Source: Amphibalanus amphitrite
Lineage: Eukaryota > Arthropoda > Thecostraca > Balanomorpha > Balanidae
DNA length: 64,000 bases
Reading direction: 5' to 3'
Assembly (NCBI RefSeq): GCF_019059575.1
Contig: NW_024881782.1
Coordinates: 261,001-325,000, forward strand
The position numbers and the translations under genes were made by a program. Shown one piece after another: positions 38,801-41,800 of the stretch. Position 1 is the first letter of the stretch. Every line of letters starts with the position of its first letter. The notes below the pieces were generated by a model. The model ran no database searches. It was not told where the DNA came from and worked only from the letters and a program-made list of their open reading frames with translations.

Positions 38801-41800
38801 AAGCAGCCGGATCCTCTTGTGTTCCGTTCCGGTCATACAATATTTTATCATTTTTTTAAGCCTCCATTCCTGAAAAATCCCACCTCCCCAAAATTGCCAT
38901 TTTCAGAGCAGATGCAAAGCTAATCACGTTTTACTGGCCATTGCTAACCCCTTATAACCCTATCGGGCAGCCCTCGCGGCAGTAATCAGCACCCTCCCTG
39001 GGTACGTCCCGCTCTCCCACGGGACCGTTACGTTTTGTGAGCGTGTCCGCGGCGCCCGGAGCGCCTCAGGCGCGGCTGTCGGCCTTGGCTCGGCGCTGGA
39101 CCCGGTTGCGACACGGGCCCTCCCCTGGCGCGGAAGAGATGGACGCTACCCCCGGGCGCCGCTGGTACCTGGGAGATGACTCCTGGACGTGCCGTAAAGA
39201 GGAGTCCGATCGCCTCCGGGTGGCGGGCTAAAGGATGGCCGGGGTCGGACCCACAGCACAGCCGGGACTGATATAAAATTCAGGGCGCGCTGTCAGAGTT
39301 GTGTGTTTACTGCAGCTGGCGCTATATAAATACATCCAAAATTAATTTTAGAATTAAGTTTTGCTAAATGTAGAAGCAATATCTCATACTTCCAGCAGAG
39401 TCTTGCATTGGATTGAGATGGAGACCACCACTTTGAAAGTAAAACGCTGAAGTATGATCAACTAAGTGTGCTAAATCTCTGAGCATGCATATGCAGTGCG
39501 CATTGTGCACCTAATCCAAGACAGATGGTCGGCCGGGTCATAAGTCCGGTGGGCTGTGCCACTCTAAGCTGCTCAGCAATGTCCCGTAACTCGTTCATCT
39601 CTACATGGCGTTTCAACGGAGACACATGCTGCATGGCCAGTGGATATACGCCCCTGAGAACCCACTGCAGTGGCGTAGTTAATGACAAAAGGGGCTGCGC
39701 TCACGTCTCCTGAGCAGCCTGAGTCGGCCAGGAGAGCGCCGAAGCGGAACGGCCATGTTCGTGATGTAAATAGATCGTCCCGTAATGGTTTCGCTCTCGG
39801 GAGTTGGAGGCATCGTTAATGGTAGTCCTTGGAGTAATGTAATCTATTGCAACATTATCGCCCGGCGCCGTAGCTCACACGTAGCGGGCGCCGCATTGTC
39901 CCTATTAGGATTTGCACTGACGATGGCCGCTTAAAGCTCAATTCACTGCAGTTAGCGGACACTTTAGATAAGAGACCGGGTTAAAATTCATCCCATGCAT
40001 GGCCTGATTCTGTGACAGGGCCAACTTGGTGGCCACTCGTAGTCCCTAGACCATGGATGGATTGAGTAATGCACTTCTCTGGTTCTGAAACCTAGCCTTC
40101 ATCCCAAATGCGGCGCGCTAGATCAGCAATCACCACAAAATCTCCCCCTTTACAGTCCGTGCCACGAGCGTGCTCGTTTCGCTACTGAGTGTTCATGCTT
40201 TGCGGTATATCATGCCATAAGTGCCGACTCATTTTATAAACGAGACAGCTTTTGAATTGGCATAGCTCTAGCCGTTCATCTGAGCGCTCTTCCAGCGGCC
40301 ATGACTGTTCTCTGACGGCGTATCGAATGGCTTTGCAGATCAACATCGCTGTTCAGTGCTTGAGTACCGACTTCAGTAGCCAAAAGGGAGTTAAGGTGAG
40401 CATACGGGGAAATTGTTGATACCACGCCTTGATTGCAGATAAGCATCGCGTTGCAGTGCTTTAGTACTGACTTCAGTAGCCAAAAAGGCGTCAAGGTGAG
40501 ATGAGGAAAGGATCGTCCTTAGCTAAAGAACTGTCGACCCAGTTCACCCACATTCATATGTAAGATGCGTTGTTGCACTTCAATATCGCTTGCGGTTCGT
40601 ACCGATCACGACAAAGGAGTTGCATCACTTGCTCCTCTTGGTCCAAAGCGTCATTCGGCGGCTTAGCTTTGCATGCTTTCACTCGTAAAGGCGCCGTGAA
40701 ATGTTTGAACTGCCTCGATGCCGTGCAGTGTTCCGTACCCGACTACCCCTTGTGACGTCATATGACGGTATTGGTGTGCCGCCACAGGGACTTCCGCTGC
40801 ACATTCAAATCGACACCTACGAGGATTATCGGGACCCGAACGCGCCTGTCTCTCACCGCGCGTACTGCCAAGTCAAGTCCTTCTGCGATAAGGTAAGCAC
40901 GTCAGCAGCAGAAGAGATCAGTCAACAAGAGATGAATGGCTGTGATGAAATGCTTGATCGAATTACGTTACAGAGCTATAAGGGAAAGGATGTTAGAAGT
41001 ATGCAATTGCACAAAGTATGCGTGGAGGTTGCCACCGAGTAAAGTTCAATGCAGATGATGTTTTGAAATCATCCGATAACGTAAGTTGTTTAAGATTTCA
41101 ACTTATGCTGAAGAAGAGCATTCTCTTCAGTAACGTTGAAGCCTTCGAAATGAAATACCACATTGCACAATGCACATGATATCATAAACGATGACTCAAG
41201 GCAACTTAGAAAAAAAAACTCTTCAATTGCAATCACTCCTCTGATTCAACTCGTCCCCAGCACCTCCCCTCACTACCCGACCACACAGTAGCCGATCTGG
41301 CAGTAGCCGCCCTGCACAATCTGGCAATAAATCAGCCGCCTCCCGACCGGCCGGGCCATCTGTCATGGCCGTAATGACAGGCGACCAATGGCTGCAGCGG
41401 GCACAGAGCTGCCGACCGGGGAGGGGCCGCGCGCGGGAGACGGGACACGAGCGATGGAACACGAGCGGTGGGACACGAGCGGTGGGGCACGACCGACCGA
41501 TGGAACATGATCGAAAGGACACGACCCACGGGATACGACCGCCCTGGGGGAGGTGTCTGCCTCGTCCTTTCCCCGCTCTGCAGAGACTTCGTTTCCCGTT
41601 TAGTGCCGCTCCCACCCGATTCAAAGCTGCTTCATTACATCCCGCTTTATTCGTGTTCCGATTCAGGATTTTCTTGTTTAGGCAAGTCTCAGTTTAGGCT
41701 TGCTTCGGCTTAGGAATGAGCCGGTTTAGGCATGTTCTTGTTTAAGCATGACCGTGTTTAGTATGTTCTGATTTAGGCATGCCCGGTTTGGGCATGTCCC

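Follow-up and report, generated by a model that had tools for sequence, protein, structure and literature searches.

Grainyhead proteins of flies and vertebrates occur as splice variants, which are not known to differ outside the N-terminal part, in the DNA-binding fold, and the isoforms of these animals were reportedly treated by Uv in 1997 and by Miles in 2017. Throughout the animals, epidermal barriers are under the control of Grainyhead (PMC3348937, available part), and the Daphnia grainyhead entry in the available part of PMC7318467 is an alternative 5' splice site. Mutually exclusive exons inside a DNA-binding domain are already known from another gene, FOXP1, in which exons 18 and 18b of the forkhead domain exclude each other and the choice between them changes DNA-binding specificity (PMC11701043, available part). 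Such exons can be recognized from sequence by their homology, their similar lengths and the conservation of their splice sites and reading frame (PMC3228551). One route to exclusion in human exons of this kind is crowding of the splicing signals, in that a distance of less than 50 nt from donor to branch point is regarded as potential steric interference; 57 human clusters (9%) have donor and branch point under 50 bp apart (PMC5740500, available part).

The window analysed here, a 64,000-nt stretch of the genome of the barnacle Amphibalanus amphitrite, contains a grainyhead gene with two neighbouring versions of one exon, copies A and B, within the DNA-binding domain. The reading that we consider probable is that both copies are kept as alternatives, are made exclusive by steric hindrance, and yield isoforms whose three-residue difference tunes DNA binding. 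A literature search for barnacle and grainyhead together returned nothing, and none of the best-ranked matches, judged by title and abstract opening, dealt with alternative exons in the Grainyhead DNA-binding domain.

The grainyhead gene and its twin exons

The window encodes a complete grainyhead coding gene, which comprises 13 exons when joined through B and extends from 17895 to 45658 with GT donors and AG acceptors. Its product agrees at 676/679 residues with the NCBI model P0001, annotated as 'protein grainyhead-like isoform X16 [Amphibalanus amphitrite]', which was found at 100% identity over the domain in a protein search with a query containing B. This model, which we assume is likely based on RNA reads, skips A and runs from the exon ending at 38700 through B to the exon starting at 40788. 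P0001 also carries a C-terminal GRHL-type domain (PF25416 GRHL1_C, E 7.6e-30), and its structure model matches 5mph (Foldseek E 1.2e-16). When viral contigs were searched with P0001, one pattern match and no relative were obtained. The features of the locus, all on the plus strand, are the following.

17895..17926, +, first coding exon of the P0001-type isoform
20918..21626, +, exon of the N-terminal region
30116..30291, +, exon ending ...DKIHIPK
33556..33718, +, first exon of the DNA-binding domain (DBD)
37942..38053, +, DBD exon ending ...KQRILDV
38606..38700, +, DBD exon upstream of A, ending ...NPLESSGK, donor AAG/GTAAGC
40263..40502, +, longest haplotype-identical stretch (240 nt) in a 3.2 kb alignment, covering 76 nt before A, A, the spacer, B and the B donor
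40312..40316, +, CTGAC, branch-point-like match for A (consensus match only), its A at -24
40339..40395, +, exon copy A, 57 nt, phase 0-0, 19 residues
40396..40438, +, spacer between A and B, 43 nt, with A donor AAG/GTGAGC, TTGAT and B acceptor TTGCAG
40439..40495, +, exon copy B, 57 nt, phase 0-0, 19 residues, present in P0001
40788..40892, +, DBD exon downstream of B, ending ...VKSFCDK
42542..42721, +, DBD exon
43625..43680, +, exon
44992..45154, +, C-terminal (GRHL1_C) exon
45300..45364, +, C-terminal (GRHL1_C) exon
45532..45658, +, last coding exon, ...TLIEVGD and stop

A first-pass annotation had proposed that the Grainyhead DNA-binding domain contains a pair of 57-nt exons, identical at 47/57 positions and separated by 43 nt, in phase 0 and with intact splice sites. 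Its coordinates and numbers were right on recomputation, its assignment of the gene to a crustacean was correct, and the location is borne out by the match of the domain to Pfam PF04516 (CP2; E 3.5e-57) and by its closest solved relatives, GRHL1 and GRHL2 (GRHL1 chain 5mpf_A, E 3.6e-60). The ten nucleotide changes between A and B are spread over nine codons, and six of them are synonymous, at the third position of codons 1, 4, 10, 16, 17 and 18. The differences between the peptides are N/S2, V/L5 and L/F8 (A/B). By the sequence features named in PMC3228551, the copies are of equal length (57/57 nt), are each preceded by AG and followed by GT with phase 0 at both ends, and share 16/19 residues. 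The reading frame is kept with A, with B, with A and B joined or with neither, while retention of the spacer leads to stop codons.

The resemblance is confined to the exons. Similarity falls to 11/40 upstream and 15/40 downstream, ending about 6 nt into the introns. Apart from B, no 57-nt segment of the window matches A at more than 28/57 positions on the plus strand or 30/57 on the minus strand, and in 200 mononucleotide-shuffled windows the best match did not exceed 32/57. A second contig of the same genome also contains A and B. An assembly slip or a recent duplication was ruled out as the source of the pair by the unrelated flanks, the high silent divergence and the presence of both copies on two contigs, and we regard such an artefact as extremely improbable.

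Other coding features lie downstream of the grainyhead gene. A retroelement is marked by a reverse transcriptase ORF of 488 codons at 52332-53795 (PF00078, E 7.6e-33). Two ORFs with FDDD-type acidic repeats, at 57029-57391 (120 aa) and 58838-59863 (341 aa, also rich in Gly and Tyr), have no Pfam match and are possible secreted acidic matrix proteins.

The short spacer and the haplotype comparison

According to the favored reading, either A or B would be spliced into a transcript, between an upstream exon that ends at 38700 and a downstream one that starts at 40788. The branch-point-like TTGAT of B, a consensus match only, has its A 24 nt from the A donor and approximately 19-20 nt before B, a predicted distance that is below the 50 nt associated with steric interference. 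Since the predicted B branch point is this close to the A donor, joint inclusion of A and B is probably sterically hindered, and the spacer would not be efficiently spliced once A had been defined. A scan for YTNAY at 13 acceptors found a match at 11, those of A and B included, with its A at -20 to -24; the D2 and D5 acceptors had none. The shortest other intron among the compared exons of the gene is 145 nt.

It had been proposed at the outset that the spacer is probably too short to be spliced. At 43 nt it is very short indeed, but this is no absolute bar: a 43-nt intron of human ESRP2 is spliced (PMC4463651, available part) and fly introns of 40-50 nt are spliced as well, although more slowly (PMC5762160, available part). 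Exclusion may thus be strong without being complete. Because all combinations of the two exons are in frame, decay of faulty transcripts cannot force the choice. Direct observation covers the anatomy, the deposited model with B only, the constraint and the occurrence in two haplotypes, while use of A, exclusivity with its mechanism, and tuning of binding are what we infer.

The window locus is on contig C285, and a second match in the same genome is on C389. The two contigs are taken to be haplotypes of one locus because their introns diverge by 4.3% (126/2929 differences, gap columns excluded). The other coding exons differ at 68/1946 aligned bases (3.5%, first exon left out), and the block consisting of A, spacer and B at 0/157. 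At the exon rate, zero differences would arise with a chance of 0.004 over these 157 bases and of 0.017 when only the 114 exon bases are counted; this block had been fixed beforehand by the first-pass annotation, and the test itself was made after the zero had been seen. The small exon C3 (65 nt) is likewise without haplotype difference. Identity between the haplotypes also includes the 76 nt of intron before A (40263-40338), a candidate splicing control region in which control elements could lie.

Constraint on the copies and age of the pair

The homologues compared were drawn from an insect-rich set of 279 fetched proteins, in 252 of which the segment is visible, a single time in each. The A peptide is the commonest form of the segment (93/252). 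Position 8 is Leu in 251/252, the sole Phe being that of exon B in P0001, and L5 occurs in four of the 252, all from the barnacle group. The B-type combination of S2 and L5 is found, among the best 120 of 2056 matches, in four barnacle-group proteins, namely P0001, P0002 from Pollicipes, P0003 from A. amphitrite and P0004; the barnacle entries among these 120 are all B-type and include no A-type protein. Two further protein searches listed no barnacle proteins among the best 120 of 356 and the best 120 of 359 matches. The protein database holds one representative per 90% cluster, P0001 representing four sequences, and an A isoform would be hidden under P0001 because of this clustering at 90% identity. 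None of the 279 proteins contains two copies of the segment. In the Grainyhead model P0241 of Ixodes scapularis, the N-terminal half and the beginning of the domain occur a second time; this is probably a misjoined gene model.

Divergence between A and B is dominated by silent change, with dN of 0.079 and dS of 1.37, values that come from few sites and carry wide error. When ten random changes were made to A, only 0.1-0.3% of simulations gave no stop codon and three or fewer residue changes. If A derives from the common form, the chance of its having zero replacements is approximately 3e-5 even at a dS of 0.45. The same genome has a second grainyhead gene (C33:417000-426900, minus strand, encoding P0003) with a single, B-like 57-nt exon. 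B differs from this paralogue exon by one replacement and some 11 silent changes (10.7 silent sites), and A by three replacements and eight silent changes; when the three are compared, the four sites at which B alone differs are all silent. Purifying selection on both copies, suggested initially from the pair itself, is supported for the pair by the dN and dS values and by the excess of silent changes over replacements relative to the paralogue.

The paralogue was expected to carry both copies as well, and this was ruled out by the finding of one exon. Its D3-D5 intron contains no visible remnant of a second copy, the best match to A, B or its own exon elsewhere in the intron being at most 25/57. 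In a tree built without the 57-nt exon, the paralogue, Pollicipes and P0004 cluster together to the exclusion of the window gene (support 99/99 and 100/100), and forcing the two A. amphitrite genes together was rejected (p-AU 0.0004, in a test framed after the first tree had been seen). The gene duplication is therefore older than the split between Amphibalanus and Pollicipes. The silent divergence of A and B (pS 0.63) is within the range between the two genes (mean 0.55, range 0.23-0.91 in 19-codon draws), so the exon duplication looks broadly similar in age to the gene duplication, as far as near-saturated sites permit, and the pair looks old. At variable sites, A and B agree at five, A and the paralogue exon at four, and B and the paralogue exon at three, and all differ at three, so that silent sites favor neither order. 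In residues, B groups with the paralogue exon by virtue of S2 and L5, a hint that the exon duplicated before the gene did and that A was then lost from the paralogue.

Several other accounts of the pair must be weighed against retention of both copies as exclusive alternatives. B might be the copy that does the work, with A surviving by chance as a vestige or as an exon that is seldom used, which would agree with the use of B in P0001, the only deposited model seen from the gene, with the S2 and L5 of the four barnacle-group proteins, and with the lack of an A product among the best 120 matches per search of 90% clusters. A nevertheless has intact splice sites, the commonest peptide among homologues, a branch-point match of a form that recurs in the gene (CTGAC, compared with TTGAT for B), no haplotype differences, and the improbable absence of replacements noted above if it comes from the common form; we consider its being a vestige unlikely. 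The converse, that A is the main exon and B a relaxed copy whose F8 breaks a Leu otherwise invariant in the homologues examined, draws on the single Phe among 252 and is more improbable still, given that the deposited model carries B, that B shows one replacement against 11 silent changes relative to the paralogue exon, and that it is the same in the two haplotypes.

No greater weight is given to the two copies being ordinary cassette exons that are sometimes joined, giving 38 residues, and sometimes both left out. The frame survives in all four combinations, and other animals can splice introns of 43 nt (PMC4463651 and PMC5762160, available parts), but the doubling or deletion of a strand and a DNA-contact loop should wreck the fold, no fetched protein has two copies, and the predicted distance from donor to branch point is only 24 nt. 

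A more far-reaching possibility, considered tentative, is that exon A would be the ancestral arthropod reader and B a derived one, in which F8 would repack the base of the contact loop and the two isoforms would serve different target sets by tissue, moult or settlement stage.

Position in the DNA-binding fold and comparison with known systems

We take the segment to correspond to GRHL1 371-389, from alignment to GRHL1 with R427 as anchor, with the variable residues at 372, 375 and 378. The K and G of the QKG motif are then presumably GRHL1 386 and 387, a numbering that depends on the same anchor. In GRHL1, residues 386 and 387 touch DNA. As first proposed, the segment includes the Gly387 equivalent, and by this numbering the stretch with Gly387 is in the part common to A and B. 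An AlphaFold model of full-length P0001 built from 33 alignment rows was of poor quality (mean pLDDT 50.9); in it, exon B is residues 430-448, a strand at 428-435 precedes the loop, and residues 438-447 have pLDDT <50. Both isoforms would have the same contact loop, and their differences would fall in the strand supporting it. With the loop wholly common and N/S2, V/L5 and L/F8 confined to the supporting strand, the swap would tune DNA binding rather than abolish it. A change in affinity or specificity between the isoforms is plausible because of the analogy with exon 18b of FOXP1 (PMC11701043, available part).

Should both copies be in use, the Grainyhead/CP2 family would join those with exclusive exons in their DNA-binding domains, a natural three-residue swap would make the role in specificity of residues behind the contact loop testable, and splicing would be linked to the making of barriers in an animal that moults and builds a shell.

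Fly and vertebrate Grainyhead isoforms belong to the same family and also include splice variants (PMC7471608, available part). The initial remark that no alternative exons are known within the Grainyhead DNA-binding fold needs a caveat, as four deposited decapod models, P0023 (Penaeus indicus), P0036 (Panulirus X4), P0037 (Homarus) and P0045 (Macrobrachium), have 29-36 extra DBD residues just after the segment. This insertion begins with a near copy of the start of the next exon (GPPLHIQVDT...GLPLHIQVDT). Because Panulirus has models with it (X4) and without it (X3, P0058), the two coming from contigs of equal length, the next DBD segment looks alternatively spliced in decapods. The barnacle pair and the decapod models have in common apparent alternative splicing in the same DBD and local duplication; however, the decapod insertion, seen in protein models only, adds residues beside the core at the neighboring exon, whereas the barnacle pair would swap a segment.

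The barnacle pair resembles the human steric-interference clusters (PMC5740500, available part) in having homologous exons of equal length and phase with a predicted branch point close to the donor; those clusters were checked with junction reads, whereas the barnacle pair is sequence-based. Like exons 18 and 18b of FOXP1, A and B would be two alternative exons in a DNA-binding domain that keep the frame and alter residues of the fold. FOXP1 is a different gene with a different fold, in which use and binding were measured, while the Grainyhead pair is known from its sequence. Unlike the FOXP1 exons, the Grainyhead copies have an identical contact loop, and their differences are located in the strand before it.
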